The position numbers were made by a program, and so were the translations under genes. Below are positions 2,204 through 53,716 of a stretch of DNA of 57,490 nucleotides, piece by piece (positions within the stretch are counted from its first letter, which is position 1; every line of letters begins with the position of its first letter). The stretch is from Alphaproteobacteria bacterium (GTDB taxonomy: Bacteria; Pseudomonadota; Alphaproteobacteria; UBA9219; RFNS01), in the NCBI GenBank assembly GCA_016124955.1, contig WGMR01000004.1:1-57490 (forward strand), read 5' to 3'. The notes below the pieces were generated by a model that saw only the letters and a program-made list of their open reading frames with translations, searched no databases and had not been told where the DNA came from.

Positions 2204-3877
2204 TCAGAAGGTAGTAACGACACATCTGCCCGCGCCGCCAGCACCGCCGGCGCTACGCCCGCCGCCGCCGCCGCCGCCCGGCTGCGTACCAGCGGTTCCG
2301 GTTCCGGTGCTACCCGCGCCGCCAGCGCCACCATATTTCGATGACCCGCCTGACGTAGTGTTTGCTGAGCCGCCGCCGCCGCCGCCAAAAGCCGAGCTGC
2401 CGCCAGCATAGGCGTTATTGTTATTACATCTCCTGCAGCCGCCGCCGCCGCCGCCAAAACTGCCGCCTTTTGGCAAAGCATAGGCATAACAGTTATTGCA
2501 CCCGCAATCATAATAGACATATGTACCGCCATCCCCTGCCGTTCCATCGCCCGCTGTGGCGGGTACGCTTGATTGACCGCTGCCAGTAGTGTTCGTCCCG
2601 GCTGCCAGCATACCGCCGCCGCCGCCGCCATTGCCTTGCTCACTTTCGCCGCCGCCGCCGCCATAGGCCGAAACCCAGCTGCCAAAGGTGGTTGTGCCAC
2701 CTACGCCGCCGTTTGCGTTATTAGTTGTTTGGCCGGTGCCACCGGCGCCGATCGTCACGGTTTCGGTGGAACCGAGCGAACTTGTGGCAATCCAGCGATA
2801 GGAATAGCCGCCGCCGCCGCCGCCGCCGGCATAGCCGCTTGATTGCCGCGCGCCGCCGCCGCCACCGCCAATGCATTCAATAAGCGTCATGCTGCCGCTA
2901 CCGGGCTTGGTCCATGTGCCGCTTGAGGTAAAGGTTTGTGTATCGACACTGCTGCTGCTTGAAGGCGTTGCCCAGGTGCCGTCGCCACGCAGGTATGTGC
3001 TGCTGCTGGCCGTGCCGCTGCCAAGCCGCGCCGTGCCCACCGTGCCGGTGGAAAGATTACTGGCGCTCAGCGCCGTCAGCGATGCGCCGGAACCGCTGAA
3101 GGTCGCCGCCGCCACGTTGCCCGAAAAACTTGCGGCCGCGCCCGAAAGCGTGCCCGTCATGGTGGGCGAAGCCGAAAGCACCACATTGCCTGTGCCCGTC
3201 ACCGTATATTCGCCCACAACGCCGCTGCTGTTGTACAAAACCCTGGTGTTGGTGCCGCTGGTGATCGTGGTCGATCCCACCGTGATGCCGCCGCTGCTCG
3301 GCGTCGCCCAGCTGCCGTCGCCGCGCAAATAGGTGCTGCTGTCGGCCGTGCCGCTGCCCATGCGCGCCGTGCCCACCGTGCCGGAAGCGATGTTATCGGC
3401 GTTCAGCGCGGTCAGCGATGCGCCCGAACCGGCGAACGAGGTGCCGGTTATGTTGCCGCTGTCGTCGATTGTCACGCCGCTGTTTTGCAGCAATTTGCCG
3501 GTGGTGCCGTCAAAGCGCACGACCGCGTTATCGGTCGCGCTCGAAGGGCCCGTCACGTCGCCGCTGCCCGAAGGCGCATCGGTGGTGCAGTTGATAACAT
3601 CGCCGTCGGTCGTGCACCATTTGCCGCTGGTCAGCGTGCCGATACTGCTGCTGCCCCCGCCGCCCGAGCCACCCATGTTTACCCATGACGCGCCGTTACA
3701 ATACTGCATCAGATCATAGCTGGTGTTATAGACCTGCTGCCCGGCGACGCCCGTGGGGCTGGTGCAATCAGCCAGCGCGGGCACGGAAAACAGCGCAAGC
3801 GCCGCCAAAAGCGGCAGCGCCGCAAAAAAGCGGGCGGTGATGTTACGGCAGGTTTCCGGTTTCATCGCATCCCTCAT
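2204..3877 (-). CDS. Secreted fibre protein A with glycine-rich tip (no S74 chaperone)
   Basis: This is the last of five coupled fibre genes; its ATG at 3877 overlaps the preceding stop in an ATGA. The 557-residue product has a Sec signal ending ALA/DC near residue 36, then the shared head motif (DC-x4-GVAG-x-Q-x-YNTSY, MQYCNG-x-x-W-x-NMG). The shaft has two copies of the 46-residue repeat (GSGASLTALN... LRGDG-x-WATP). Unlike its neighbours it ends in about 240 glycine-rich residues introduced by FTSSGTWTKPGSG and closing with CVVTTF. That is the layout of glycine-rich receptor-binding caps in phage tail fibres. A Cys/Asn-rich insert (DCGCNNC, CRRCNNNN) sits inside the cap. The tip probably binds a surface ligand (inference). 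Confidence 0.8.
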   Translation of the reverse strand: MRDAMKPETCRNITARFFAALPLLAALALFSVPALADCTSPTGVAGQQVYNTSYDLMQYCNGASWVNMGGSGGGGSSSIGTLTSGKWCTTDGDVINCTTDAPSGSGDVTGPSSATDNAVVRFDGTTGKLLQNSGVTIDDSGNITGTSFAGSGASLTALNADNIASGTVGTARMGSGTADSSTYLRGDGSWATPSSGGITVGSTTITSGTNTRVLYNSSGVVGEYTVTGTGNVVLSASPTMTGTLSGAAASFSGNVAAATFSGSGASLTALSASNLSTGTVGTARLGSGTASSSTYLRGDGTWATPSSSSSVDTQTFTSSGTWTKPGSGSMTLIECIGGGGGGARQSSGYAGGGGGGGYSYRWIATSSLGSTETVTIGAGGTGQTTNNANGGVGGTTTFGSWVSAYGGGGGESEQGNGGGGGGMLAAGTNTTGSGQSSVPATAGDGTAGDGGTYVYYDCGCNNCYAYALPKGGSFGGGGGGCRRCNNNNAYAGGSSAFGGGGGGSANTTSGGSSKYGGAGGAGSTGTGTAGTQPGGGGGGGRSAGGAGGAGRCVVTTF

Positions 3878-5571
3878 GGGTTAGACGTCCTGATAAGCTT
3901 GGCTTTGGCGCCCGCGTGCGCGCCGCGCAGCGAAGCGTTTTCAGCCCGCAGATTTTCGTTGGCGGCTTCAAGCCCGGCAAGCCGTTCTTCCAGCGCCGCG
4001 AAGCGCGCGTCATACCCGCTCATCCGTGCGGCCATCTGCTTGACGGCCTCGATCACGGGCAGCACCAGCTTGTCGTACTGCACCGCCATGAAGCCCTTTT
4101 CGTCGCGCGTGATCGCTTCAGGCAACACCTTTTCCACTTCCTGCGCGATCACGCCGAAATCATCCGAATTATCCTTGTTCCATTTGAAGTGCACCGCGCG
4201 CAGGCCTTTAACGGTCTCGATCGGGTCGCGCTCGAACCCGGTCACATCATGCTTCAAGCGCGCGTCCGACGAATGGTAATAGCCGGTGGTCAGCAAATTG
4301 CCCGCCGTGGCCAGCGAATAGCTGCTGTTCGGCGTGGTGCCGATGCCGACATAGGCGCCCGTGTTGCTTATGCTCATGAGCAGCGTCGGGGAGGTGCCTG
4401 AGGGTGCGGACGAATCCCCAAGGAACCTTATGCCGTCATAACCGATTTCGATGCCGGCGGCCGAAGTGTATGAGTTAACCCCGAGCGAGGTCCAGCCGCT
4501 GCTGGCGTTGCGATAGCCGTTCCACATCAACGAAAGGCGATAGGCGCCGTTGCTGCCAATATAGCCATAAGGTGTGCCGAACCATGGGCCGGAGGTGGTG
4601 CCCCAGAAATCGCTGAAAGCAGCCTGCCCACTGACATAAACAGATTTCGAAAATGTCGCGGTGTTTGATACACCGATCGTACCGACGCCGGTCACATTGC
4701 TGCTGTCGTCCACGGTGATACCGCTACCCTGCAACAACTTGCCGGTGGTGCTGTCGAAGCGCACGAGCGTGTTATCGGTGCTGCTGGCCGGGCCTACCAC
4801 GTCGCCGGAACCCGAAGGCGTGGTCCAAATTCCATCGCCGCGCAAATATGTGCTGCTGCTTGCCGTACCGCTGCCAAGCCGTGCCGTGCCCACCGTGCCC
4901 GATGCCAGGTTGCTGGCGTTCAGCGCGGTCAGCGAAGCGCCGGAACCTGCGAAGGATGTTGCCGTCACATTGCCGCTGTCATCGATCGTCACTGTGCTGT
5001 TCTGTGTGATGTCACCGCCGGTGCCGTCCCAGCGCACGACCGCGTTATCGGTGCTGCTGCCGGGTCCGTCCATGCTGCCCGTGGGCGTCGCCCAGCTGCC
5101 ATCGCCGCGCAGGAATGTCGTGCCGTCTGCCGTACCGCTGCCAAGCCGCGCCGTGCCCACCGTGCCGGATGAAAGATTGCTGGCGTTCAGCGCGGTCAGC
5201 GATGCGCCGGAACCGGCGAATGTGGTGGCGTTTAGGGTCGCCACGCCGCTGATATTGTTGCTGTCATCGATCGTGACCGAGCTGCTTTGAATAGTCTTGC
5301 CGGTGGTGCCATCGAAGCGCGCAATCGCGTTATCGGTGCTGCTGCCGGGGCCGGTTACGTCGCCGTTGCCCGCGCTGCCCGCACCCGCGCCCATATTCAC
5401 CCAGTTGGTGCCGTTGCAGTACTGCATCAGGTTATAGGAAGTGTTATAGAACTGCTCGCCCGCAACGCCGGCTGGCGTGTCGCAATCGGCCATCGCCGCG
5501 CCGGGCATCATCACGGCTGCAAGCGCCAGCGCGCCGCAAAGCCTGATTGCTGCTATGTTCATCGCTTTCAT
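3874..5571 (-). CDS. Secreted fibre protein B with C-terminal Peptidase_S74 intramolecular chaperone
   Basis: The 565-residue product has a Sec signal ending AMA/DC at about residue 28, the shared Cys-containing head, and a shaft with two long repeats plus shorter 'VTIDDS(G/N)N(V/I)' turns. A unique tip of about 120 residues is rich in Trp, Tyr and Gly (around 4320-4680). An endosialidase-type chaperone follows, beginning HSSDARLKHDV. Ser435 and Lys440 have the Ser-(x4)-Lys spacing of the self-cleaving S74 dyad; cleavage there would release a 131-residue chaperone after trimer folding. The end is a leucine-heptad coiled coil. Start and stop overlap neighbours by 4 nt on both sides. The domain calls are family knowledge; trimerisation is inferred. 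Confidence 0.85.
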   Translation of the reverse strand: MKAMNIAAIRLCGALALAAVMMPGAAMADCDTPAGVAGEQFYNTSYNLMQYCNGTNWVNMGAGAGSAGNGDVTGPGSSTDNAIARFDGTTGKTIQSSSVTIDDSNNISGVATLNATTFAGSGASLTALNASNLSSGTVGTARLGSGTADGTTFLRGDGSWATPTGSMDGPGSSTDNAVVRWDGTGGDITQNSTVTIDDSGNVTATSFAGSGASLTALNASNLASGTVGTARLGSGTASSSTYLRGDGIWTTPSGSGDVVGPASSTDNTLVRFDSTTGKLLQGSGITVDDSSNVTGVGTIGVSNTATFSKSVYVSGQAAFSDFWGTTSGPWFGTPYGYIGSNGAYRLSLMWNGYRNASSGWTSLGVNSYTSAAGIEIGYDGIRFLGDSSAPSGTSPTLLMSISNTGAYVGIGTTPNSSYSLATAGNLLTTGYYHSSDARLKHDVTGFERDPIETVKGLRAVHFKWNKDNSDDFGVIAQEVEKVLPEAITRDEKGFMAVQYDKLVLPVIEAVKQMAARMSGYDARFAALEERLAGLEAANENLRAENASLRGAHAGAKAKLIRTSNP

Positions 5572-6749
5572 GGCGCCGCCGCCTTCCTGAATCCGGCCTT
5601 ATGCAAACCGCCTGCCGCCTGCGCGGCGCGAAGTTTTTCGTTGGCGGCTTCGAGCGCCGCGAGGCGCTCTTCCATCACCGCCAGCTTCGCGGCTTGCTTG
5701 CGCATAATCTCGGTCATCGCCGCGAGCTGTTCGTCATACCCGCTCATCCGTGCGGCCATCTGCTTGACGGCCTCGATCACAGGCAGCACCAGCTTGTCGT
5801 ACTGCACCGCCATGAAGCCCTTTTCGTCGCGCGTGATCGCTTCGGGCAACACCTTTTCCACTTCCTGCGCGATCACGCCGAAATCCTGCTTGCCGCCATC
5901 GTTCCATTTGAAATGCACCGCGCGCAGGCCTTTCACGGTCTCGATCGGGTCGCGCTCGAACCCGGTCACATCATGCTTCAACCGCGCGTCCGACGAATGG
6001 TAATAGCCGGTGGAAAGAATGTTGCCGTTGGTATAGATCTTATAGCTTGCGCTCGGTGTCACGCCCACACCAAGGCCATTGGTGTTCATTGTCATGATGC
6101 TGGCGTTATCGATACGGAAATAAATTGCGTTGCCGGAAGATGCGTTCAAATATGTAATGCCCGCGGAAGACTGCAGCAGCGCATAATTGCCGCTTGCCGA
6201 TTGATCAAGCGCTGCATGGCCGAACACGGCATATGTTGTATTGGAGGGCCATCCACCTGCCAACACGCGGCCAATACGCGCGACGCTTGTCGCTGTCGGT
6301 ATATCAAGCGCGTAGCTTGCGGTTGTCGTCCCAATACCCACATTGCCGCTGTCGTCGATGATCACGGCGCTGTCCTGCACCGTCGTGCCCGTCGTGCCGT
6401 CCCAGCGCGCAATAGCGTTATCGGTGCTGCTGCCGGGGCCGACCATGGTGCCGGTGGGCTCGTCTTCCGTACAGGTCACAACCGTGCCGTCGCTGGTACA
6501 CCATTTACCGCTGGCCAAAGCGCCGAAGCCGCTGACGCCGCCCGTGCCCATATTGATCCAGTTGCTGCCGTTGCAGTACTGCATGATGTTATAGCTGGTG
6601 TTATAGAACTGCTGCCCGGCAACGCCCGTGGGCGTGTCGCAATCGGCTCGCGCGGCGGCGGGCGCAAACACAAGCGCGCAGGCCAGCAGCGCCGCAAGGC
6701 TGCGGGGAAGGGCGTTATGGCCGGTTGCCGGTTTCATCGCGTCCCTCAT
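5568..6749 (-). CDS. Secreted fibre protein C, short, with Peptidase_S74 chaperone
   Basis: This is the smallest chaperone-bearing fibre at 393 residues. It has a Sec signal ending ARA/DC near residue 35, the shared head, a very short shaft without the 46-residue repeat, and a tip of about 100 residues containing YAVFGHAALDQS and MTMNTNGLGVG. It then has the S74 chaperone with Ser253 and Lys258 as the predicted dyad and a coiled-coil tail. The tip is closely similar to that of the giant fibre E. The first residues MRDAMKP match those of fibre A, and the corresponding DNA at the two upstream gene ends is also alike, so A and C look like products of a cassette duplication. ATGA overlaps link it to genes on both sides. 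Confidence 0.85.
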   Translation of the reverse strand: MRDAMKPATGHNALPRSLAALLACALVFAPAAARADCDTPTGVAGQQFYNTSYNIMQYCNGSNWINMGTGGVSGFGALASGKWCTSDGTVVTCTEDEPTGTMVGPGSSTDNAIARWDGTTGTTVQDSAVIIDDSGNVGIGTTTASYALDIPTATSVARIGRVLAGGWPSNTTYAVFGHAALDQSASGNYALLQSSAGITYLNASSGNAIYFRIDNASIMTMNTNGLGVGVTPSASYKIYTNGNILSTGYYHSSDARLKHDVTGFERDPIETVKGLRAVHFKWNDGGKQDFGVIAQEVEKVLPEAITRDEKGFMAVQYDKLVLPVIEAVKQMAARMSGYDEQLAAMTEIMRKQAAKLAVMEERLAALEAANEKLRAAQAAGGLHKAGFRKAAAP

Positions 6750-9700
6750 GGGTTGGCCGTCCTGTCGAATCTAGCTTTTACCGCGCGCCCGTCAAGCGCG
6801 CCGCGTTTCATGGCGTCGCGCAGCGTCGCGTTCTCGGCGCGCAGATTTTCGTTGGCCGCTTCCAGCGCGGCAAGGCGCTGCGCCATAGCCGCCATCTGTG
6901 CGTCATGCGCGTCCACGCGGCCGGTCAGCGCCGTAAGGTTTCCGGCCATCTGCTTTACAGCCTCGATCACGGGCAATACAAGCTTGTCGTACTGCACCGC
7001 CATGAAGCCCTTTTCGTCCCGCGTAATGGCTTCGGGCAGAACCTTTTCCACTTCCTGCGCGATCACGCCGAAATCCTCGCTATTATCCTTGTTCCATTTG
7101 AAATGCACGGCGCGCAGGCCCTTCACGGTTTCGATAGCGTCGCGCCCGAACCCGGTCACATCATGCTTAAGCCGCGCGTCCGATGAATGGTAGTAGCCGG
7201 TCGAGAGGATGTTGCCCGCCGTAGCAAGCGAATAGCTGGTGTTCGGCGCGTTGCCTATGCCCACAAAGGCGCCGCTTTGGCTAACCGTCATGCGCGCCGT
7301 GCCTGCGGTAACAAGTGCAACGGCATCGCCGCCGGCGGTACCGAACAAAACGGTGCCGCTGTTATAAGTCCAGTAACTTATCGTCGCGGGCGTGCCCGCG
7401 CGCGAAACCGTAATCGTACTGTCGGTAGCATCATAGATATGCAGCTTGTCGGCGGGGCCGGTCGTGCCGATGCCGATATTGCCCGAAGCATCGATAGTCA
7501 TGGCCGTCACGGCGGCATAATTGCTTCTGATCTTCAAGCCGCCCGCGCCACCTTCAAGATAGGTGATGTCGTCGGAATACAGCTGCAGCAACGCGCGCGT
7601 GGTGCCGCCCGAATCCTTGGAATCGAGCCGTTTTGCGTTCGCAAGCAGGATGCCGTTGTTGGCGGTTACGGTTCCGGAAAAAGTGCCCGCCGCGGCCGTT
7701 ATCGTACCCGTCAATGTCGGCGAAGCCGACATCACCACGTTGCCCGTGCCGGTGATCGCATATTCGCCCACCACGCCGCTGTTGTCATACAGCACATAGC
7801 CGTTGTTGCCGCCGGTGATGGTCGAGCTGCCGACGGCCATGCCGGCGCTGACCGAAGGCGTGGTCCAGGTGCCGTCGCCGCGCAGATAGGTCGAAGAACT
7901 TGCGGTGCCGCTGCCAAGGCGGGCGGTGCCGACCGTGCCCGATGCCAGGTTGCTGGCGTTCAGCGCGGTCAGCGAAGCGCCCGAGCCGGCGAACGAGGTC
8001 GCGGTCACGTTGCCGCTATCGTCAATCGTCGCGCCGCTGTTTTGCGTCAAGCCGCCGGTGGTACCGTCCCAGCGCACGATCGCGTTATCGGTGCTGCTGC
8101 CCGGGCCCACCATGCTGCCCACCGGCGTCGCCCATGTGCCGTCGCCGCGCAAAAACGTGCTGCTGTCGGCGGTGCCCGAAGACGCAAGCCGCGCCACCGG
8201 CACCGTGCCCGATGTCAGCTGCGTTGCGTTCAGCGCCGTCAGCGAGGTACCGGTGCCCGAAAAGCTTGCGCCGGTCACGGCGCCGGTCACGCCCAGCGTG
8301 CCCGCCACCACCGTGTTGCCGCTTGCCGCCGCCACCGTGAATTTGTTGGTGTTGATCGCGAAATTGCCGGAAGCGGCAAGCGTGCCGATGCCGGTTACGT
8401 TATCGCTGTCGTCGATGATCACGCCGCTGTCCTGCGTCACGCTGTCGGTGCCGTCGAAGCGCGCCACGGCGTTATCGGTCGTGCTGCCCGCGCCGCCGCC
8501 GCCGCTGCCGCCCGCGCCGGGGCCGCCGGTGGCGGAGGGAAACACAACGCCGTCGGCGCCGAATTTTGCCGCCATCACACCGCCCGCGGCAATCGCAACC
8601 GTATCGGCAGCCGGGGCGTAAAGACCGGTATTGGCATCGCCCGTCACGGCCCACCCGGGCGCGCTGACGGTGCCGGCTGCGAAAGTGCTGCTGCCTACTT
8701 CCGTCCAGCCGCCGGCATAGACGTTCATCTTGCCGGTACTGGTGTTATAGATCATCAGGCCCGTCGCCGGGCTTGAAATTGCGTCGCGCGCGGTGCCGTC
8801 CATGCGCGGCGGCAGGAAGCCCTTGCTGGTGCTGACCATTTCAAACTGCGCGCTCGCATCCACGGTTTTGGTGCCCACGCCCACGCTGCCCGTGCTATCC
8901 ATTCTGATGCCGCCGATGCTGGAATTCCACGGCGCGATAACAAGCCCGCCGGTTCCCTGCGAACCGGCATTGTAGGTGATGATCGCGTCGCCCGTGGCGG
9001 TAATAGGGTTATGCGAGCCACTGGACATGTTGGCCTGTATGGCAAGGCTGGTGGTTGATGTATCTGACCGCACCATGATACCGGCGGCTGTGGTGCCGGA
9101 TTTATAGACATCAAGCAAATTGCTTGTAGCCGTGGTGCCGATCCCGACATTGCCTGTCGTGTTCAACGTGGCGATGCCGGTTACGGCGTTGGCATCGCTA
9201 ATGATCACGCCGCTATTCTGCGCCAGCTTGCCCGTGGTGCCGTCAAAACGTATCACAGCGTTATCGGTGCTGCTGGCGGGGCCGTTGAAATCGCCGATCG
9301 AGCCGCTGCCGCCCTGCACCGTGGCCCAGGTGTTATCGCCGCGCAGGAATGTCGTTGTATCCGCCGTGCCGCTACCGAGACGTGCCGTGCCCACCGTACC
9401 GGTTGAGATATTGCTGGCGTTCAGCGCGCTCAGGCCGGCGCCCGAACCGTTGAACACGCCTGCGGCGGTAATAAGCGCCAGCACCACATCATCGCTGTCG
9501 CGAAACTCGGCGAGGTTGCCGCTTTGCGAGATCGCGCCCTTGACGATCAGGCCCACATCGGTCGCCGCAAGCGCGGTTACGGTCACGATATCGGTATCGG
9601 TCGCATATGTCAGGCCCGAAGCGCCCGCAAGATCGCCCGCGCCGTCATTATACTGCACCTGTCCGCCGCTGCCGGCGGCGTTCGCCGGCGGATCTTCCTG

Positions 9701-9952
9701 ACAGTTGATCAGAGTGCCGTCGGACGTACACCATTTGCCGCTTTCAAGCGTGCCGATCGCGCTGTCGGAACCGCCCGAACCCATATTGATCCAGACGCTG
9801 CCGTTACAGTACTGCATCAAATCATAACTGGTATTATAAAACTGGTCGCCCGCAACGCCGGTGGGGGTCGTACAATCGGCCCGCGCCGCGCCGGGCAGCA
9901 GCAGCGCCGCAAACGCGGCTACGAGCGATACCTTATATATATACCGCATCAT
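6746..9952 (-). CDS. Secreted fibre protein D, long shaft, with Peptidase_S74 chaperone
   Basis: This 1068-residue fibre has a Sec signal ending ARA/DC at about residue 25 and the shared Cys-containing head. Its long shaft has three copies of the 46-residue repeat, a GFLPPRM...RDAISSPATGL segment typical of tail-fibre shafts (near 8745-8840) and further TDNA-x-x-RFDGT turns. The tip near 7200-7650 includes two 'GNIGIGTT'-type beta-turn units. The S74 chaperone has Ser924 and Lys929 as its dyad and leaves 145 residues for release. A heptad coiled coil ends the protein. It overlaps the genes before and after by 4 nt. It is presumably secreted by Sec and held at the surface by its head domain, although no lipobox or LPXTG-like anchor is visible. 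Confidence 0.85.
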   Translation of the reverse strand: MMRYIYKVSLVAAFAALLLPGAARADCTTPTGVAGDQFYNTSYDLMQYCNGSVWINMGSGGSDSAIGTLESGKWCTSDGTLINCQEDPPANAAGSGGQVQYNDGAGDLAGASGLTYATDTDIVTVTALAATDVGLIVKGAISQSGNLAEFRDSDDVVLALITAAGVFNGSGAGLSALNASNISTGTVGTARLGSGTADTTTFLRGDNTWATVQGGSGSIGDFNGPASSTDNAVIRFDGTTGKLAQNSGVIISDANAVTGIATLNTTGNVGIGTTATSNLLDVYKSGTTAAGIMVRSDTSTTSLAIQANMSSGSHNPITATGDAIITYNAGSQGTGGLVIAPWNSSIGGIRMDSTGSVGVGTKTVDASAQFEMVSTSKGFLPPRMDGTARDAISSPATGLMIYNTSTGKMNVYAGGWTEVGSSTFAAGTVSAPGWAVTGDANTGLYAPAADTVAIAAGGVMAAKFGADGVVFPSATGGPGAGGSGGGGAGSTTDNAVARFDGTDSVTQDSGVIIDDSDNVTGIGTLAASGNFAINTNKFTVAAASGNTVVAGTLGVTGAVTGASFSGTGTSLTALNATQLTSGTVPVARLASSGTADSSTFLRGDGTWATPVGSMVGPGSSTDNAIVRWDGTTGGLTQNSGATIDDSGNVTATSFAGSGASLTALNASNLASGTVGTARLGSGTASSSTYLRGDGTWTTPSVSAGMAVGSSTITGGNNGYVLYDNSGVVGEYAITGTGNVVMSASPTLTGTITAAAGTFSGTVTANNGILLANAKRLDSKDSGGTTRALLQLYSDDITYLEGGAGGLKIRSNYAAVTAMTIDASGNIGIGTTGPADKLHIYDATDSTITVSRAGTPATISYWTYNSGTVLFGTAGGDAVALVTAGTARMTVSQSGAFVGIGNAPNTSYSLATAGNILSTGYYHSSDARLKHDVTGFGRDAIETVKGLRAVHFKWNKDNSEDFGVIAQEVEKVLPEAITRDEKGFMAVQYDKLVLPVIEAVKQMAGNLTALTGRVDAHDAQMAAMAQRLAALEAANENLRAENATLRDAMKRGALDGRAVKARFDRTANP

Positions 9953-12900
9953 GGTGCCGCCGCCTTGAGAGCCGCGAATTCGCCGCGAAGCGATTCCACA
10001 GAATCGCGCAGCGCCTTCAGCTCGTCCTTCAGCATTTTGTTTTCTTCCCGCAGCGCCTTGATCTCGTCGTCATGGCCATCAACGCGCTTGGCCAGCGCCA
10101 TCAGGTCGGCGGCCATCTGCTTCACCTCGATCACCAGCTTTTTCACGGCTTCCAGCACCGGCAGCACGAGCTTGTCGTACTGCACCGCCAAAAAGCCCTT
10201 CTCGTCGCGCGTGATCGCTTCGGGCAGAACCTTCTCAACTTCCTGCGCGATCACGCCGAAATCCTGTTCGTTATCCTTGTTCCATTTGAAATGCACGGCG
10301 CGGATGCCTTCAATGGTGGCATACGGGTCGCGTTCAAATTGCACCACATCGTGCTTCAACCGCGCGTCCGATGAATGGTAATAGCCAGCGGAAAGGATAT
10401 TGCCGTTGGTATAAATTTTGTAACTCGCACTTGGTGCCACACCAACACCAAGACCGTTGGTATTCATGGTCATAACGGTGCTGTTGGCGACACGGAAATA
10501 GATGGATCCGTCGGTTCCGGTATTCAGGTATGTTCCCGTGGCTCCGCTGTTTTGTAGCAATGCGTAATTTGTATTGACCGACTGATCCATCGCCGCATGA
10601 CCGAATACCGCATATGCCGTGTTGGCAGGCCACGCACCAACTATGGCAGCGCCAAGGCGGGCGTTATTGGTAACCGTGGGTATATCGAGCGAATAGTTCG
10701 CGCTCGTCGTGCCGATGCCCACATTGCCGCTGGCGGTCAGGTTTCCTGTGATGGTCGTCGCGCCCGCCGCCAGTGTGCCGATGCCGCTTACGTTATTGCT
10801 GTCGTCGATGATCACGGCGCTGTTCTGCAGCGTGGCGCCGCCGGTGCCGTCAAAGCGCGCCACGGCGTTGTCGGTGCTGCTGCCCGCGCCGCCCACGTCG
10901 CCGCCGTCGCCCACGCCGGCGCCGCCCGCCTGGCCGGGAAAGATCACGCTGCCGCTGGCGATGTTGATTTTGCCGCTGCCCTTCGGCGTCAGGTTGATAT
11001 TGACGTTGGTGTCGCTGCCCGCCGCGCCGATGGTCACGCCGCTGCCGGTCGCCGCCGGGGTCAGCGCCACGTAATTCACGCCGCTGCTGGCGGTGTTAAA
11101 GCGCGCAACCTGAACCCCGCCCGCCGTCACCGAAAGCGTATCGGCCGCCGGGGCGTAAAGGCCGGTATTGGTATCCGTGCTTACCGCAAGGCCGGGTGCG
11201 CCCACCGTGCCGGCATCGAACTGCCCCGCCGTGCCGCCGCCCGCTTCGGGCTCGTCGCCCGTCACGCCCGGAAACACCATGCCGCCTGCGGTGAAGCTGG
11301 CCGCCATGCTGCCGCCCGCGGCGATCGCGAGCGTATCGGTCGCCGGGCGGTAAATGCCGGTGTTTTCGTCGTTCGCGAACGGCCAGCCGGGCGCATCCAC
11401 CGTGCCATCCGCCATGTCGGTAGCGCCGCCGCCCCCGCCGCCGACCATGGCGCCGGAGAAGTTTGCGGTGTATAATGTGCCACCCGTAATTGTTGTGCTT
11501 CCGCTATAAATATAAGCTTCCACATAATCGCTGCTGCCGTTCATATCGAGTATGACGGATGCGTTCGGAATATAGTTCGTCGGCGTGCCCGCCTGTCCTT
11601 CATAGGAGATCAGAGCTCCATTTTTATATATGCCAATATAGCAGATAGTCCCGCCGTTGCCGCAATATGCGCTAGCTGCAAAAATATACTTCCCCGCCTC
11701 CGTTGGCGTGAAGCGATCAGAAGCAAAGTTGTCATTGGTGTCAAAAATTTCCGTTTGCCACGTCAATTTGGTCCATGTGCTGGTTGCGACTGTCTGGTCA
11801 ATTGTTTTGCGTACAAAGAAGCTCGGCCCCGTGCTGCTGCCCCCGCCGCCGCCCGCGCCGGTGCCCACCGCGCTCCAGACGCTGCCGGTGTAGTAATTCA
11901 GCGCGTTGGTGGATGTATTGTAAACCACAAGGCCGGTTGCCGGGCTGCTGATCGCGTCGCGCGCCGTGCTGTCCATGCGCGGCGGCAGGAAGCCCTTGGT
12001 CGTGCTGACCATATCAAGCACGGCGCTTGTTGCCACGCTTGTGGTGCCGATGCCAACGCCCGTGGCGCCGGTGACCGTGCCCGCCGTAACGGTATCGCCG
12101 GTACTGGCATCGATCGTGAATTTATCGGTGTTGACCGCGACATTGCCGGTCACGTCAAGCGTATCGGAAAGCGTGGTCGCGCCGGTTGCATCCAGCGTGC
12201 CCGCCACGACCGTATCGCCGCTTGAAGCCGCCACCGTGAATTTGCTGGTGTTGATCGCAAAATTACCGCTGGCCGAAAGCACGCCGATGCCGCTTACGTT
12301 GTTGCTGTCGTCCACCACAACGCCGCTGCCCTGCACCAGCTTGCCGGTGGTGCCATCGAAACGCGCGAGCGTGTTGTCGGTTGCGCTGGCGGGGCCGTTC
12401 AGATCGCCGATCGTGCCGACGCCGCCCTGCACCGTGGCCCATGTATTGTCGCCGCGCAGAAAACTTGTACTGTCCGCCGTGCCGGATCCGAGCCGCGCGG
12501 TCGGCACCGTGCCGGAACCGAGCGCGGAGGCGTTCAAAGCCGTCAGCGAAGCGCCGGAACCCGCGAAACTCGCGCCCGTGACCGCGCCGGTCACATCCAG
12601 CGTGCCTGCCGCCAGCGTGTTGCCCGTGGCGGCATCGACCGTGAATTTGTCGGTATTCACCGTAAGGTTGCCGCTAAGCCCGAGCGCGGCAAGCGCGGAT
12701 GTGCCGGTGACGCCGAGCGTGCCGCCCACGACCGTATTGCCGCTGCTGCCCTCGACCGTAAACTTATCGCTGTTGATCGCGAAATCGCCCGCGGCCGCGA
12801 GCGTGCCGTCGGTGCTGATATTGCCCGCCGCCGTCACGCGCGCCAGAACGCCGGCGCTATCGTTGCGCCATTCCGTCAGGTTGCCGGATTGCGATGTCGC

Positions 12901-15819
12901 GCCCGCCACTACAAACGGAATGTCGGTCGCGGTTTGCGATGTCACGGTCACCACATCCCCCGAAGATGCGTATGTAAGCCCGAGCGCGCCGGCGAAACCG
13001 CCGCTGCCATTATACTGCACCTGCCCGCTGGCGCCGGCGGCATCGCCCGTGGAGCCGTTGGAGCCGAGCCCGCCGCTCGCGCCGCCGAAATGCAGGATGC
13101 GGTCGGAAAGGTTGATTTTGCCGGTGCCCTTGGTGGAAAGGGTAAGATCGATGTTGGTATCGCTACCGCCCGCAGAAATGGTCGGGCCCGCGCCCGTCGC
13201 GCCGGGGGTGATGCTGACGTAATTGACGCCGTTCGTGCCGGTGTTCCAGCGCACCACTTCGGTGCCGCCGGCGGTGACCGAAAGCGTATCGGCATTGGCC
13301 TGATAGAAGCCGGTGTTGGTATCGTTGGTCACGAACAGGCCGGGTTCGGTCACCGTGCCCGGGTCAAAGTTGGTGGCGCGGCCGCTGCCCACCGCTTCCC
13401 AGCTATCGCCGTCGTAATAGTTCAGCCCGTCTGTCGTTGTGTTGTAGATAAGCAGGCCGGTCGCGGGGCTTGATATCGCGTCGCGTTCCGTTTCCTGCAT
13501 GCGCGGCGGCAGAAAGCCCTTGGTCGTGCTCGAGAGCGCGAGCAGGGCGGTGCCGGTCACGCTGGTGGCACCGAGCGCCATGCTGCCCGCCGGTCCGACC
13601 ACGCCCAGAACGTTCTGGTCGCTGTCCTGCCATTCCTGCAAATTGACGCTCTGCGATGCGGCGCCGCGCACGATCAGCGGCTTCGATGTCGCGTTCGCCG
13701 CCACCGCCGTGACCATGCCGGTCAGGTTGCCGGTAACATTGCCCGCAAGATTGCCGTAGAAACCGCCGGTCGAGGCGGAAACCGCGCCCGTGAAGGAGGC
13801 ATTGCCGGTATCGCGCGCAATCGAGAAGGGCGTGCCGATCGCGGCGCCGCTGTCGTCGTAATTTTTCAAAACAAAATTGCTGCCGGCGTTGCTGCCGCCT
13901 TCGGCGGTGCTTTCGCCGCCCCACGCCCAGCGCAGCGTCGTGCCGGTCGCGATCTGGTAGAAACGGTCGCTCGCGGCCGTGCCTTCCAGCCTGATGTTGC
14001 CGGCTTTCACATGCAGCCGCTCGGCGGGGTCAGAGGTGTTGATGCCGACATAGCCGTTTTCGTCGATCGTCATAGCGGCGGTGCCGTCGGTCGAAAGCAC
14101 GATCGTGCCGCCGCTGCCGCCGCCGTCGGTAATGTCTATTCCGGTGTCGTCTTGGTTGAACGAGGCGGTTTCCACATCCTGCGCGGCGGTTACGCGGCCG
14201 GTGCTATCGACCGTGCCCCAGTTATAGGCGCCCGCGGTCACGCCGCTGGCCGGCAGCCGGTTGGCATCGAGCGTGCCCGTCGTCAGATTGCCCGCATCGT
14301 TGGCACCAAGGTTGGTGCGCGCGCCCGCCGCCGTGCTGGCGCCGGTGCCGCCATTGGCGATGGCGACCTGCCCGGCCAGAATGCCGGACGCGTTTGTAAG
14401 GTAGGTCGCGGTCGTCGCCGTAGTGGCGGTGCCGGAAATGCCGACATCAAGCGTGCCCCCGCCCAGACCCGTGAGCCCGAGCGCAGACCATGCCGCGGCG
14501 GCATCCGCCGCCTGAAACACCGCATCACCGGTCGCGCCGACGCCAAGCGTGACGCGCGCGGCGGCGGCGGTTGACGATGTGAACAGCGAATCGCCCGTGC
14601 TGCCCGCGCCGATGGTCGAACGCGCGGTCGAAGCGTCATCGGCCGTGAAAAGCGTGGTGCCGACCGTGCCCGCGCCAAGGGCGGTGCGGCCCGCAGCTTC
14701 GTCGGCGGCAATGAACAGCGCATCGCCCACCGTGCTGGCGCCAAGGGCGGTACGGCCCGCTTCTTCGTCGGCGGCCACAAACACCGCGTCGCCCACCGTT
14801 GTCGAGCCAAGCGAACTGCGCGCCGCGCCCGCGCTGGCTGCGGTAAAGAGCGATTCGCCGATACTGGTCGCGCCCAGAAGCGTTGTACGCACGGTCGCGG
14901 CGGTGGAACTGTCATAGGAACCGGCGGTGAAAAGATAGTCGCCCATCGTGGTAGCGCCGAGGTTCACGCGCGCGCCGCCCGCCGTGGCCGCGCCGGTGCC
15001 GCCCGAAGCCACCGGCAACGGATTTGAAATGCTGATCGAATCGGCCGTGATCGCGCCGCTGAGGCTGAGCGCGGAGCCCATGATGGTGCCGTCCGGCTGC
15101 ACGCGCACCGCGTTGGCGGCAACGCCGTAGCGAACTTCCTGCTGCCCGCCGCCGATGTCGGCGACCTGCCAGACGTTGGCACGGTTGATCGCTTCGCCCA
15201 CATTGACGCGTTCGATTTTATCGTCGTTCTGGGCGACGGTGTCGCCGCAATCCGTTTCAAGCGTGCCGTTGGGGCCGGCGCTGATCAGCAGCATCGCCGG
15301 GTCGCTGCCGGGCGTGACCGCGTTTTCCCAGCGACAGTAAATATAGAAACGGTTCCAGGGGTCGAGCTGCTTGACCCCGGCGGTGGCCATGTAAACACCC
15401 GCGCTTTCGGGGCTGCCGTCATCGTCGGCGGCGGCATAGCCGGTCGGAAGTTTGGACGCGTCCTCGCTGGCGATGCTTGCAAAGGGATAGGTCGCCGGCG
15501 GCTCGAGTGTGGTCTGGTCCACACTGAGCGCCGATGTCGAGGAAAGCGTGCGCGCCGCGGCGGTCAGATCGTTGCGGGCGGTATTATCGCGCGTGACTTC
15601 GACGTTGCTGCGCAGAATTTGCGAATAGCCGCTGAACAAAATGCCTGCGCCGACGCCCGCAATCGCCAGCACATAAAGGATCGGGCCGATCATGAAGCCC
15701 GCTTCGCCCCGCTTGCGCGCATGCGCAAACCCGAAACGCGCGCGCATGAAAGCCGAGCCGAAAAGCCCGCGCCTCACCGTGCCCGCGTCATTGGTCGTGG
15801 GGGTTTTGCCGAAATTCAT
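9949..15819 (-). CDS. Giant pilin-like/tail-fibre fusion protein E with C1q-like insert and Peptidase_S74 chaperone
   Basis: The first gene of the operon encodes 1956 residues and starts at an ATG preceded by AGGGG. It has no Sec signal. A 41-residue basic leader ends RKRGEAG, followed by a hydrophobic segment (42-64) beginning FMIGPILYV, as in type IV prepilins but with Pro instead of Glu at +5. Residues 65-230 contain DPWNRFYIYC and ISAGPNGT, which resemble the GspG pseudopilin globular region. Seven 22-residue repeats follow (286-448), then a long tail-fibre-type shaft with two GFLPPRM segments and one 46-residue repeat. A C1q/TNF-like domain lies at about 1332-1458, then a tip like that of fibre C, an S74 chaperone with dyad Ser1817/Lys1822 and a coiled coil. 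It could be a pilus-tip or membrane-anchored adhesin. Processing by a prepilin peptidase is inferred. Confidence 0.8.
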   Translation of the reverse strand: MNFGKTPTTNDAGTVRRGLFGSAFMRARFGFAHARKRGEAGFMIGPILYVLAIAGVGAGILFSGYSQILRSNVEVTRDNTARNDLTAAARTLSSTSALSVDQTTLEPPATYPFASIASEDASKLPTGYAAADDDGSPESAGVYMATAGVKQLDPWNRFYIYCRWENAVTPGSDPAMLLISAGPNGTLETDCGDTVAQNDDKIERVNVGEAINRANVWQVADIGGGQQEVRYGVAANAVRVQPDGTIMGSALSLSGAITADSISISNPLPVASGGTGAATAGGARVNLGATTMGDYLFTAGSYDSSTAATVRTTLLGATSIGESLFTAASAGAARSSLGSTTVGDAVFVAADEEAGRTALGASTVGDALFIAADEAAGRTALGAGTVGTTLFTADDASTARSTIGAGSTGDSLFTSSTAAAARVTLGVGATGDAVFQAADAAAAWSALGLTGLGGGTLDVGISGTATTATTATYLTNASGILAGQVAIANGGTGASTAAGARTNLGANDAGNLTTGTLDANRLPASGVTAGAYNWGTVDSTGRVTAAQDVETASFNQDDTGIDITDGGGSGGTIVLSTDGTAAMTIDENGYVGINTSDPAERLHVKAGNIRLEGTAASDRFYQIATGTTLRWAWGGESTAEGGSNAGSNFVLKNYDDSGAAIGTPFSIARDTGNASFTGAVSASTGGFYGNLAGNVTGNLTGMVTAVAANATSKPLIVRGAASQSVNLQEWQDSDQNVLGVVGPAGSMALGATSVTGTALLALSSTTKGFLPPRMQETERDAISSPATGLLIYNTTTDGLNYYDGDSWEAVGSGRATNFDPGTVTEPGLFVTNDTNTGFYQANADTLSVTAGGTEVVRWNTGTNGVNYVSITPGATGAGPTISAGGSDTNIDLTLSTKGTGKINLSDRILHFGGASGGLGSNGSTGDAAGASGQVQYNGSGGFAGALGLTYASSGDVVTVTSQTATDIPFVVAGATSQSGNLTEWRNDSAGVLARVTAAGNISTDGTLAAAGDFAINSDKFTVEGSSGNTVVGGTLGVTGTSALAALGLSGNLTVNTDKFTVDAATGNTLAAGTLDVTGAVTGASFAGSGASLTALNASALGSGTVPTARLGSGTADSTSFLRGDNTWATVQGGVGTIGDLNGPASATDNTLARFDGTTGKLVQGSGVVVDDSNNVSGIGVLSASGNFAINTSKFTVAASSGDTVVAGTLDATGATTLSDTLDVTGNVAVNTDKFTIDASTGDTVTAGTVTGATGVGIGTTSVATSAVLDMVSTTKGFLPPRMDSTARDAISSPATGLVVYNTSTNALNYYTGSVWSAVGTGAGGGGGSSTGPSFFVRKTIDQTVATSTWTKLTWQTEIFDTNDNFASDRFTPTEAGKYIFAASAYCGNGGTICYIGIYKNGALISYEGQAGTPTNYIPNASVILDMNGSSDYVEAYIYSGSTTITGGTLYTANFSGAMVGGGGGGATDMADGTVDAPGWPFANDENTGIYRPATDTLAIAAGGSMAASFTAGGMVFPGVTGDEPEAGGGTAGQFDAGTVGAPGLAVSTDTNTGLYAPAADTLSVTAGGVQVARFNTASSGVNYVALTPAATGSGVTIGAAGSDTNVNINLTPKGSGKINIASGSVIFPGQAGGAGVGDGGDVGGAGSSTDNAVARFDGTGGATLQNSAVIIDDSNNVSGIGTLAAGATTITGNLTASGNVGIGTTSANYSLDIPTVTNNARLGAAIVGAWPANTAYAVFGHAAMDQSVNTNYALLQNSGATGTYLNTGTDGSIYFRVANSTVMTMNTNGLGVGVAPSASYKIYTNGNILSAGYYHSSDARLKHDVVQFERDPYATIEGIRAVHFKWNKDNEQDFGVIAQEVEKVLPEAITRDEKGFLAVQYDKLVLPVLEAVKKLVIEVKQMAADLMALAKRVDGHDDEIKALREENKMLKDELKALRDSVESLRGEFAALKAAAP
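14476..14964 (-). repeat. Tandem 22-codon repeats in the N-terminal shaft of fibre E
   Basis: Residues 286-448 of fibre E contain about seven tandem units of 22 residues with the pattern TxGDxLFxAxDxxxARxxLG (66 nt per unit). Two adjacent units differ at only a few positions. Similar alanine-rich LG repeats occur in phage tail-fibre shafts. Confidence 0.85.
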
Positions 15820-16145: not shown

Positions 16146-16949
16146 TCAGGTCAGCAGAACGGCCAAAAGCAGCCCCCCGATCGCGATCCGGTACCAGGCG
16201 AAGGGCGCGAAGCCATAACGGCCGACGAAGGCAATAAACCCCTTCGCAATCGGCCATGCGGCGAAGAAGGCGGCAATAAACCCGATCACAAGCAAGGTCG
16301 TGTCGCCTTCCGCCATCGCGTCGCGGTTTTTGTAAAAATCATAGACGGTGGCGCCCATCATGGTCGGGATAGCAAGAAAAAACGAGAATTCCGCCGCAAC
16401 CCGCCGTTCGACCCCGAGCAGAAGCGCCCCCATGATGGTGGCGCCGGAACGCGAAACCCCGGGCACCATCGCAAGGCATTGCGCACAGCCGATCAGGAAT
16501 GCGGTCTTCAACGGCATGCGGTCGAACGCCTGTGTTTTCACCCTGTACATGTTGCGTTCGATCACCAGAATGGCGACCCCGCCGAGCAACAGCGCCCACG
16601 CCACGACCAGCGGATTGAACAATGCGGCCTTGATGAAATCGTGGACCAGCGCGCCAACCACGGCGGCGGGCAGGAATCCAAGCAAAACGGCCCAGACAAA
16701 ATGCCGCGAAGCGGCATCCCTGTGCAGCGTCAGGGTCACATGCCAAAGGCGGGGGAAAAAAGCGATCACAACGGCCAAAATGGCGCCAAGCTGGATCACC
16801 ACTTCGAACATATACCCGGAAGGGCCCTGAAAGCCGATACCCTCGCCCAGCAATATCAGGTGCCCGGTTGAGGATATAGGCAGGAATTCCGTAAAACCTT
16901 CGACCACCCCCATCAGCGCGGCCTTAAGAATGGTGATCAGATCAGGCAT
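16146..16949 (-). CDS. uppP: Undecaprenyl-diphosphatase
   Basis: This integral membrane enzyme (BacA/UppP family) dephosphorylates undecaprenyl diphosphate to recycle the lipid carrier for peptidoglycan and polysaccharide synthesis. The 267-residue length is normal for the family. Both signature motifs are visible: EGFTEFLPISSTGHL near residues 17-31, with the catalytic glutamate and serine-rich loop, and PGVSRSGATI in the second half. About seven to eight hydrophobic segments follow the family plan. It stands alone, with 118 nt to the DUF2336 gene upstream on the same strand, and it ends about 330 nt before the fibre operon. Confidence 0.95.
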   Translation of the reverse strand: MPDLITILKAALMGVVEGFTEFLPISSTGHLILLGEGIGFQGPSGYMFEVVIQLGAILAVVIAFFPRLWHVTLTLHRDAASRHFVWAVLLGFLPAAVVGALVHDFIKAALFNPLVVAWALLLGGVAILVIERNMYRVKTQAFDRMPLKTAFLIGCAQCLAMVPGVSRSGATIMGALLLGVERRVAAEFSFFLAIPTMMGATVYDFYKNRDAMAEGDTTLLVIGFIAAFFAAWPIAKGFIAFVGRYGFAPFAWYRIAIGGLLLAVLLT

Positions 16950-39952: not shown

Positions 39953-41884
39953 ATGACCGCATCTGAAAATTTCCCTGTTCCCGCAGAATTTGCAAGGCAC
40001 GCGCATATCGACGCCGCACGCTACAAGGAAATGTACGATCGTTCGGTGCGCGAGCCGGACGCGTTCTGGCGCGAACAGGCCGCGCGCCTGACATGGATAA
40101 AACCTTTCACGCGCGTGAAAAACGCCGGTTTCGAAGGCGACGTGCAAATCAAATGGTTCGAAGACGGCGCGCTGAATGTCGCCGCCAACTGTATCGACCG
40201 GCATTTGCCGGCACGGGCGAAGCAAACCGCGATCATATGGGAAGGCGACGACCCGGCCGAAAGCAGGCACATCACCTACGGCGAATTGCACGAACAGGTC
40301 TGCCGCTTTGCCAATGTGCTGAAGGCGCGCGGCGTGCAAAAGGGCGACCGCGTCACGATCTATATGCCGATGATCCCCGAAGCGGCCTATGCCATGCTGG
40401 CCTGCGCACGCATCGGCGCGATCCATTCCGTGGTGTTCGGCGGCTTTTCCCCGCAAAGCCTGGCGGGGCGCATCATCGATTGCCAATCCACCTGCATCGT
40501 CACGGCGGACGAAGGTGTGCGCGGCGGCAAAACGATCCCGCTGAAAGCCAACACCGATGCCGCGCTGCAAGATTGCCCCGATGTTAAAACCGTCATCACC
40601 GTGCGCCGTACCGGCGGCAAGGTCGGCATGCATCCGCCGCGCGATGTCTGGTACCACGAAGAAGCCGCGAAGGTTCCCGCCGCTTGCCCGGCCGAAGCGA
40701 TGGGCGCGGAAGACCCGCTTTTTATTCTCTATACCTCCGGCTCCACCGGCAAACCGAAGGGTGTGCTGCATACATCCGGCGGCTACCTGCTTTATGCCGC
40801 GCTGACCCACGAAACGGTGTTCGATTACCATGACGGCGATATTTACTGGTGCACTGCCGATGTCGGCTGGGTCACGGGGCACAGCTATATCGTCTATGGC
40901 CCGCTCGCCAACGGCGCCACCACGCTGATGTTCGAAGGCGTGCCGAACTATCCCGACAGTTCCCGTTTCTGGCAGGTGGTCGATAAACATAAGGTCAACA
41001 TCTTCTACACCGCGCCCACCGCCATCCGCGCGCTGATGCGCGAAGGCGACGGGCCTGTGCAAAAAACATCGCGCCAATCCCTGCGCGTGCTCGCATCCGT
41101 GGGCGAACCGATCAACCCCGAAGCGTGGCTGTGGTATCACCGCGTGGTCGGCAATGGCCGCTGCCCTGTGATCGACACCTGGTGGCAAACCGAAACCGGC
41201 GGCCATATGATTGCGCCGCTTCCGGGCGCGCATACGCTCAAGCCCGGTTCGGCCGCGCTGCCTTTCTTCGGCGTCGTCCCCGTCATCGTCGATAGCGAAG
41301 GCAAGGAGCTGCAAGGCGCGTGCGAAGGCAATTTGTGCATCGCCGCCAGCTGGCCGGGGCAAATGCGCAGCGTGTATGGCGACCATGAAAGGTTCGTCAA
41401 AACCTACTTTTCGTCCTTCGCGGGCAAATATTTCACCGGCGACGGCTGCCGGCGCGACGAAGACGGCTATTACTGGATCACGGGGCGCGTCGATGATGTG
41501 ATCAACGTGTCGGGCCACCGGCTCGGCACCGCCGAGATCGAAAGCGCGCTGGTTGCACACCGCGCGGTGGCGGAAGCCGCCGTGATCGGCTTTCCGCACG
41601 ATATCAAGGGGCAGGGCATTTATGCCTTCGTCACGCTCAATGCGGGCGTGGAGGCAAACGACGCGCTGCGAAAGGAATTGGCGCAGTGGGTGCGCAAGGA
41701 AATCGGCCCGATCGCGACGCCGGATGTGATCCAGTGGGCGCCCGGGTTACCGAAAACCCGTTCGGGCAAAATCATGCGCCGTATTTTGCGCAAGATCGCG
41801 GCGGGGGAAGAAGACCGGATCGGCGACACATCCACGCTGGCCGATCCGGCCGTGATGGATGATTTGGTAAGGAACCGGCCTTAA
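39953..41884 (+). CDS. acsA: Acetyl-CoA synthetase
   Basis: The enzyme converts acetate, ATP and CoA to acetyl-CoA via acetyl-AMP. The 643-residue length is normal. Motifs are [14 protein letters not shown] (P-loop, near 260-275), [12 protein letters not shown] (acetate/AMP region), the hinge [15 protein letters not shown] and the C-terminal [11 protein letters not shown] carrying the regulated lysine. The ATG at 39953 follows GTGAGGG; an in-frame ATG at 39923 would overlap the PhaC-like gene. Spacing of 13 nt suggests co-transcription with it, which would supply acetyl-CoA for polymer synthesis. Confidence 0.96.
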
Positions 41885-52645: not shown

Positions 52646-53107
52646 CTAAAGCGCCGCTTTCACAAGCGTATAAAGCGCCGCGCCGACCGCCAGCGTAAAG
52701 CCGATGCATAAAAAGGGCGCAAAATGCACCTGCGTGCGCGGCTTTTTGGCCAGCCGCCACGCCCCCATCCACAAAAGCGCGAACACGGCACCCAAGGGCC
52801 AGGCGACAAGCGCGGCAGCCGGGCCGAAACCGAGCGCCGCGAGCATGGTCCATTTCACATCGCCCATGCCGAAGGCATCCGCCTTTTTCCATTTGAACCA
52901 CAGCCAGTTGACAAGCCAAAGCCCGCCGCCGATCGCCAGGGCCGCAAGCCCGTTGGTCCACAATACCACCCCTCTGGCTTCCCCCAGAAGGTAACCGAGG
53001 GTCATGCCCGCGCCGAACAGCAGGATTTTATCCGGCACCCTGCCGGTACGCGCGTCCGTTATGGCGGCGGCGACAAGGGAAATGTAAACGATCAGCAGCG
53101 CAATCAT
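52646..53107 (-). CDS. Small A24 prepilin peptidase (TadV/CpaA-like)
   Basis: This aspartic protease of the inner membrane cleaves prepilin leaders. The 153-residue product has only the catalytic transmembrane part, without the methyltransferase domain of PilD. Asp18 (in AITDARTGRVP) and Asp83 (in GMGDVK) are the two catalytic aspartates at the expected places. It follows the pilin-like gene by 30 nt on the same strand, so the two probably form an operon. It is the only prepilin peptidase in the window and a candidate processor of the giant fibre E. Confidence 0.9.
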   Translation of the reverse strand: MIALLIVYISLVAAAITDARTGRVPDKILLFGAGMTLGYLLGEARGVVLWTNGLAALAIGGGLWLVNWLWFKWKKADAFGMGDVKWTMLAALGFGPAAALVAWPLGAVFALLWMGAWRLAKKPRTQVHFAPFLCIGFTLAVGAALYTLVKAAL

Positions 53108-53137
53108 GGAAGGCTTTCTTGCAAGTGCCCGGCGCGA

Positions 53138-53716
53138 TTAATCCGCGACGCAATCGCTGTCCGCGCTTCCGCTCGGCTGCGTGATCCAGATCACCAGTGA
53201 TTGGTTTTCACTCTCGCTGTCGTAATCGGCTTCCTGCGAGGTGAATTTGATGCGCGCCTGCGCAACGCCCTGCTGCACGGCGACCGAAGCGGCGATCGCG
53301 GTCGTGCTCGGCTGGATCTTGATGCAGCGCCCGCCGCCGTCACCCGAATGATCGTAATAGGTCCAGTCGGTGAAGCCTCGCGGCGGCTGCGGCAATTGCG
53401 CCGGGCGCGCGCCGTTCCATAAATTTTCCTGCCCCGTAGGGTCGTTCGGGCATTCGACATCCGCCACCGCGGTGCCCGAAGCGTCCGACGTCGGCCAGCT
53501 GCCGCGGATCGTGTTGCATTCGAACATCTTGCTGCGGATCAGGTTCGCTTGCGTATGCAAAAGCGGGCTGATGCTGTCGGCCCGCGTTGCCGTGCCCATG
53601 TTGCTGGACCCGGCCGCCATCACGGCCGCAAGGATGCCAAGCAGCGCGACCACAAAAAGAATGGGGCCGATGGCGATCCCGGCTTCGGGGTGGAGGCGTT
53701 GGCTGGTGCCTTGCAT
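53138..53716 (-). CDS. Type IV pilin-like protein with unusual leader
   Basis: From the ATG at 53716 (GAGGAACAC upstream) the product has 192 residues. A 13-residue leader ends HPEAG, followed by the hydrophobic helix IAIGPILFVVALLGILAAVM. The usual Glu at +5 is Pro. The mature domain has four Cys in FECNTIRG, DVECPND, GRCIKI and SDCVAD contexts and a WTYYDHSGDGGGR loop. The leader and helix match those of fibre E (EAG-x-x-IGPIL-x-V-x-A). The prepilin peptidase is next downstream. No pilus assembly ATPase or secretin is in the window. Confidence 0.72.
   Translation of the reverse strand: MQGTSQRLHPEAGIAIGPILFVVALLGILAAVMAAGSSNMGTATRADSISPLLHTQANLIRSKMFECNTIRGSWPTSDASGTAVADVECPNDPTGQENLWNGARPAQLPQPPRGFTDWTYYDHSGDGGGRCIKIQPSTTAIAASVAVQQGVAQARIKFTSQEADYDSESENQSLVIWITQPSGSADSDCVAD

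Follow-up and report, generated by a model that had tools for sequence, protein, structure and literature searches.

Each incoming pilin is taken to find its register on the one before it through residue Glu5. Pilins without this residue have been described as tip initiators, each system having one Glu5-less tip pilin (PMC5207764), and a review expects no type IV filament to hold more than one pilin without Glu5 (PMC6370729). The closest described relatives of the system considered here are the type IVb pili, i.e. TCP (TcpA/TcpB), CFA/III (CofA/CofB) and the IncI thin pilus (PilS/PilV), which have a secretin, a PilP/N/O-like set, a GspE-like ATPase, a platform protein and a peptidase, and combine small pilins with a single large, modular pilin at the tip. 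In that position TcpB and CofB are homotrimers (PMC9565799) and PilV selects the target or recipient cell (PMC9045228). Two further families bear on the comparison: the modular pilins, in which a pilin module is fused to an unrelated functional domain and whose survey already lists the S74 peptidase among the fused domains (Raynaud et al. 2021, PMC8179133), and the mosaic adhesive trimer (MAT) fibres of Bdellovibrio, which are secreted, trimeric and self-cleaving and end in an S74 domain with an SDxxxK motif (PMC10769870).

We analysed a stretch of 57,490 nucleotides (hereafter the window) from an alphaproteobacterial genome, which holds a gene for a pilin, P0002, an adjoining gene for a short peptidase, P0003, and, in a second locus, the gene for a very long fibre protein, fibre E (Table 1). 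We consider it likely that all three contribute to a single type IV filament system, whose genes are scattered and whose assembly operon lies on another contig, C8. The proposed system has the same machinery as type IVb pili and the same pairing of small pilins with a large modular one. It differs in that its tip body would be a phage-type S74 fibre and its genes are spread over at least three loci. It also differs in its pilins: type IVb major pilins have Glu5, as seen in PilS of TP114 (PMC9045228) and in TcpA, and so does TcpB (PMC5207764), whereas all the pilins found here are predicted to lack it.

Table 1. Features of the two loci, numbered from the first nucleotide of the window
Feature	Position	Strand	Basis or remark
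Short prepilin peptidase P0003, 153 aa	52646..53107	-	A24 domain alone (PF01478), no methylase domain seen
Glu5-less type IV pilin P0002, 192 aa	53138..53716	-	ORF (ATG at 53716, stop at 53138; purine-rich AGGA just 5'); leader MQGTSQRLHPEAG / IAIGPILFVVALLG; predicted pilin fold (AF2)
Leader/cleavage motif EAGIAIGPI of P0002	53660..53686	-	Pattern search
Fibre E (P0001), 1956 aa	9949..15819	-	Pilin-type N-terminus, long fibre body, C-terminal S74 chaperone/protease
Leader/cleavage motif EAGFMIGPI of fibre E	15679..15705	-	Pattern search
Fibre E pilin-like module	15175..15696	-	Hydrophobic helix and DPW..Y.YC.W..SAGPNG, GspG-like; 26-sequence alignment
Fibre E S74 domain, SDxxxK motif (SDARLK)	10213..10371	-	Pfam; sequence
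Fibre D	6746..9952	-	Secreted (Sec-like signal), S74 domain
Fibre C	5568..6749	-	Secreted, S74 domain
Fibre B	3874..5571	-	Secreted, S74 domain
Fibre A	2204..3877	-	Secreted, glycine-rich (PF21722), no S74
UppP (BacA) gene	16146-16949	-	Neighbour 5' of the fibre E gene, conserved in several relatives

The pilin P0002 and its leader

P0002 gave no match when searched against Pfam and NCBIfam. Its AF2 model (pLDDT 89, from 23 aligned sequences) consists of a helix spanning residues 16-71 and an antiparallel sheet, and its best 15 structural matches in VIA-align are type IV pilins or pseudopilins: PilW and PilA1 of C. difficile come top (Z 8.4-9.1), the ETEC T4bP pilin 9iuf follows with a Z of 7.5, and PulG, EpsG and TcpB are also among the top matches. 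Two of these, the ETEC pilin and TcpB, are subunits of type IVb pili. Kinase rows lower in the match lists were treated as background. With Foldseek alone the pilin matches were weak (best E 0.04). By its predicted fold, P0002 is a type IV pilin, and as such a subunit of the type IV filament superfamily.

Cleavage of P0002 is predicted after Gly13, which places a proline at position +5. The sequence-only reading of the window had held that P0002 and fibre E, whose gene starts lie 37.9 kb apart, share the pattern E-A-G-x-x-I-G-P-I-L-x-V-x-A-x-x-G with Pro at +5, and both translations bear this out: after EAG, the mature leaders read IAIGPILFVVALLG in P0002 and FMIGPILYVLAIAG in fibre E. It had also proposed a genome-wide search for the leader, on the ground that a crowd of unrelated carriers would speak against a pilin subclass. 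When this search was run, just three carriers emerged, all of pilin type. A degenerate DNA pattern for EAGxxIGPI found 3 sites in the 1.93-Mb genome and 0 in the reversed control, the third site belonging to a pilin at C8:86964-87674 (leader EAGIAIGPILFVVAILG). A looser pattern gave 8 sites genome-wide and 10 in the controls, and among these sites the same three alone precede a hydrophobic stretch in a long reading frame; looser matches inside other ORFs (e.g. 41701-41721) were discarded as chance. Profile searches recovered the same proteins: within the genome, a profile of fibre N-termini found the P0002 leader at E 8e-4, and the fibre N-terminus as query found the C8 pilin at E 9.8e-4.

PF07963 (N_methyl), the profile of the canonical class III motif, matches neither fibre E (P0001) nor P0002, and the predicted leaders of both lack the class III motif with Glu at +5 that marks canonical type IV pilins. 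Standard annotation misses the system because PF07963 is blind to these leaders and because P0002 and the pilin module of fibre E have no match in Pfam or NCBIfam.

The prepilin peptidase and its distribution

The peptidase gene lies 30 nt downstream of P0002, as first noted from the sequence. P0003 is a predicted A24 prepilin peptidase: its A24 domain scores above the Pfam cut-off (E 5e-8) and contains two conserved aspartates, Asp18, nearly invariant in an alignment of 19 sequences, and Asp83 (in GMGDVKW), invariant in the same alignment. Peptidases of the TadV/PilU/FppA type (PMC10191384) likewise have an A24 domain alone, without methylase domain; P0003 differs from them in its lineage-specific sequence (GMGDVKW) and its length of 153 aa. 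A weak match to the peptidase profile was also recorded in CALXMV010000011.1 (L152), which is labelled Kiritimatiellaeota.

Among 33 genomes of the order, the peptidase was found in 30, the fibre E N-terminus in 27 (after removal of one match that is a small pilin), IGP-type patterns in 31 and an orthologue of the C8 ATPase in 29 (69-83% identity); a search for P0003 in 26 genomes of other orders of the class gave one marginal match. Peptidase and fibre occur together in 25 genomes of the order, the fibre without the peptidase in 2, the peptidase without the fibre in 5 (G018 and G021 have the pilus and the peptidase, with no fibre detectable) and neither in 1. The sequence-only reading would have been undermined by relatives that have the pilin-peptidase pair but never the fibre operon; this is not what we saw, fibre E being present in 25 of the 30 peptidase-bearing relatives. 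We nevertheless rejected co-occurrence within the order as proof of linkage: it varies too little between these genomes to be tested statistically, and the linkage argument rests on synteny elsewhere.

P0003 probably cleaves the leaders of the pilin and of fibre E, as the sequence-only reading proposed. The genome encodes three A24 peptidases, including a PilD-like one on C2 and a Tad-type one on C7, and either of the latter might cut the leaders in an otherwise correctly described filament system, with P0003 being redundant or serving other substrates. In keeping with such a scenario, two genomes (G001 and G032, both fragmented assemblies) have the pilus ATPase and the fibre with no match to P0003, and in the loci read from one genus (g11) no pilin gene adjoins that of the peptidase. 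More generally, no Glu5-less pilin was seen beside the peptidase in 7 of 24 named loci, nor in 9 of 30 loci from the order. By contrast, P0003 occurs solely in the lineage bearing such pilins and sits behind a Glu5-less pilin in the other 17 of the 24 named loci, and the one genome lacking peptidase and fibre (G009, 99% complete) yielded no pilin pattern or ATPase orthologue either, all four being missing together. Cleavage by another peptidase thus appears rather unlikely.

Assembly operon and synteny in other genomes

Neither of the two loci in the window has assembly machinery. The operon on C8 (~78.9-87.7 kb) does: it encodes a secretin (PF00263), a PilP-like protein, a GspE-like ATPase (PF00437, E 4e-82), a GspF-like platform protein (PF00482), two PilN/PilO-like membrane proteins and, last, the pilin carrying the third leader. 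The product of the second gene has an ASH domain and a C-terminus that looks PilP-like by inspection, and the PilN/PilO-like proteins were identified by position and size alone. The predicted ATPase, platform protein and secretin, together with the peptidase (PF01478), make up the dedicated machinery expected of the type IV filament superfamily in diderms. Cox genes lie downstream of the C8 pilin. Relatives share the gene order of the operon, and ATPase identity in the loci compared is 74-78%. The genome has seven T2SSE ATPases, and cross-use among these and the three A24 peptidases is possible. Two more filament clusters were noticed at 243-250 kb of contig C7 (G000:C7) and at 69-73 kb of contig C6; their pilins are ordinary ones with Glu5, and they have ATPases of their own. 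A Tad-type peptidase cluster lies at C7:20 kb.

The pilin locus and the fibre locus had been proposed to be linked. They do appear to belong together, and the link runs via a third locus, the C8 operon: the two can be joined because such pilins cluster with C8-type operons in other bacteria. In JAIXQD010000033.1 (L131), the platform, PilN-like and PilO-like genes are followed by cysDN, which lies on the opposite strand, and next by two IGP pilins and the peptidase; secF is convergent, as it is in the window. In G027 an S74 fibre comes directly behind the pilin-peptidase pair. In f138, another alphaproteobacterial family (G348 and G267), a single locus encodes two pilins, with both pilin types represented, as well as an A24 peptidase, secretin, ASH protein, ATPase, platform, PilN and PilO. 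One of these pilins matches P0002 in G348 (E 8e-5, in a small search), and the peptidase is just ~28-33% identical to P0003. The f138 genomes also encode, away from the machinery locus, giant fibres with a pilin-type N-terminus; that of G348 ends in S74, and a secreted S74 fibre comes after it. The same pilus operon is found in f121, a further alphaproteobacterial family (G150 and G253), with three pilins in G150; the G253 contig ends before the pilins.

Plasmids extend this picture. P0002 matches only two of 72,556 plasmid records, from Rhodoferax ferrireducens T118 and Methylibium petroleiphilum PM1. Both plasmids are conjugative, the same two top the plasmid search with the C8 ATPase, and in both the pilin match lies in the same operon as the ATPase match. 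The Rhodoferax operon goes on to encode a fibre of 1,049 residues. In a two-locus search the N-terminal domain of this protein matched fibre E (E 1e-6), but the protein has a Sec-type signal and no pilin leader; the next gene on the same strand bears the annotation tail fibre assembly protein. The fibre E N-terminus itself found no match among the plasmid records. On the T118 plasmid (NC_007901.1, 154-176 kb; L206), the Glu5-less pilus operon is mostly unannotated and includes a PPIC-type isomerase.

Absence of Glu5

The sequence-only reading had taken Pro at +5 as the mark of a pilin subclass. The subclass is real and conserved, but as a Glu5-less one, and we rejected Pro5 as its defining trait: in relatives, M, V, L, S, T, A or Y take its place. 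Position +5 is P in 25 fibres and A in 1 (26 sequences); P in 17, M in 3, V in 2 and L in 1 of the small pilins linked to the peptidase, with one S among further loci; P in 7/7 pilins of the C8 type; L, Y and T in f138; T, A, A and P in f121; and L, L and Y on the Rhodoferax plasmid. Glu at +5 was never seen in any of these groups, nor in Methylibium. By contrast, the eight PF07963-type pilins of the same genome all have Glu5.

The unexpected part of these results is that, as judged from the translated genes, all pilins known from this filament system are Glu5-less, which conflicts with the expectation of PMC6370729. Fibre E taken singly fits the tip pseudopilins of the GspK family, which are large, lack Glu5 and cap the pseudopilus (PMC5207764); GspK systems, however, have one Glu5-less member each, whereas here all members lack the residue. 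According to the published rule for Glu5-less pilins (PMC5207764, PMC6370729), the small pilins could be minor pilins that start or decorate a filament made of a Glu5 major pilin encoded on C6 or C7, and the eight Glu5 pilins of the genome offer candidates. We regard this as unlikely: the operons of f138, of f121 and of the two plasmids have two to four pilins, none of them with Glu5, and most Glu5 pilins of the genome lie in clusters with their own ATPases. A Glu5 pilin could still be recruited from another locus.

Fibre E and its neighbours

Fibre E appears to be modular. The S74 domain at its C-terminus is clear (PF13884, E 6.6e-13, residues 1817-1869), and the leader, the helix that follows and a weak resemblance to GspG suggest a pilin module at the N-terminus. 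Within the first 220 residues, the motif DPW..Y.YC.W..(I/L)ISAGP(D/N)G..TxC is kept after the leader and helix (26 sequences); T2SSG is detected in 4 of the 26 members (best E 0.16, a weak resemblance), and the best PDB profile match, also weak, is the N-terminus of geopilin (E 0.5). The AF2 model of the N-terminus, obtained from a single sequence, had a pLDDT of 42 and was not used. The open frames of fibre E relatives vary widely in length: the shortest have a few hundred residues, some of them being truncated at the end of a contig, and the longest has 9,801. The 9,801-residue orthologue (L071/L153-L154, G002:C1:607 kb) has NAFG-type repeats, an S74 domain and a C-terminal hydrophobic segment, and such a segment is also present in the G348 fibre.

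The first neighbours upstream of fibre E are UppP and a DUF2336 protein, and both keep this place in several relatives. Fibres A-D, all with Sec-like signals, come after fibre E in the operon (2204-15819, minus strand of the window). Fibres B-E have a near-identical S74 C-terminus (GYYHSSDARLKHDV...) behind very different bodies, and their sequences look as if the bodies had been swapped onto a common chaperone.

How does this set compare with described fibres? A pilin-S74 fusion is in itself not new (PMC8179133). That survey, however, required the canonical motif IPR012902, whose Pfam counterpart PF07963 misses fibre E, and fibre E differs from the surveyed modular pilins in being far longer (1,956 aa, with relatives up to 9,801) and in belonging, as proposed, to a Glu5-less machine. 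Like the Bdellovibrio MAT fibres, fibres B-D have a signal peptide (by inspection) and a C-terminal S74 domain with an SDxxxK motif (PF13884), which reads SDARLK in fibres B-E. In MATs a conserved ~130-aa beta-rich domain comes after the N-terminal signal peptide, whereas fibre E has a pilin-type leader instead; the word 'pilin' is absent from the main text of the MAT paper (PMC10769870).

The likeness of fibres B-D to MAT proteins raises the alternative that fibre E is not borne by a filament, its pilin-type helix anchoring a trimeric MAT-like adhesin in the envelope beside fibres A-D, and the Sec signal of the Rhodoferax fibre E-like protein points the same way. Against this, fibre E retains its pilin-type leader throughout the order, with Pro at +5 in all but one of the aligned sequences, and the Rhodoferax fibre gene directly follows the pilin genes of a pilus operon. 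An anchored adhesin is thus quite improbable.

The proposed filament system

The assignment of P0002, P0003 and fibre E to one filament system is based on sequence features, the predicted pilin fold, conservation and co-localisation in other genomes. That the shared leader merely reflects chance or convergence of ordinary class III signals, with no functional linkage, has a negligible likelihood: the motif is short and lies in hydrophobic sequence, but the control for the EAGxxIGPI pattern was empty, the leader is conserved order-wide and found by profile, and synteny, in the form of operon co-localisation in independent lineages, already contradicts chance.

In the proposed system, P0003, a peptidase of the TadV/PilU type, would cut all three leaders after Gly. 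The C8 pilin and P0002, the small pilins, would then be polymerised by the C8 machine into a filament extruded through its secretin. The C-terminal body of fibre E would be a phage-type fibre folded by its S74 chaperone. By analogy with TcpB/CofB and PilV, fibre E most likely caps the filament; it is probably a homotrimer, as CofB and TcpB are, its length and S74 domain being as expected of a trimer, and would act as an adhesin that binds the target surface. With no Glu5 in any of its pilins, the system must dock its subunits by something other than the usual salt bridge between Glu5 and the N-terminal amine.

Whether the system represents a separate, widely distributed branch of the type IV filaments, which has no Glu5 subunit, follows another docking rule and carries tips derived from phage tail fibres that recognise other cells, is in our view an evenly balanced question. 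Such a branch would cover several alphaproteobacterial families and betaproteobacterial conjugative plasmids. The existence in independent lineages of operons with two to four pilins, none of them Glu5, means that the rule of PMC6370729 can be tested directly. The system also illustrates how a pilus may come to carry fibres of phage type together with the chaperones that fold them, and joins the MAT fibres of predatory bacteria with the PilV tips of conjugative pili.

As a side observation on the f121 genomes, the pilus operon adjoins a DotB-type ATPase gene in G150 (C34, L204) and VirB8-like genes in G150 and G253 (C13, L205), a neighbourhood that suggests a tie of the pilus operon to a type IV secretion system.
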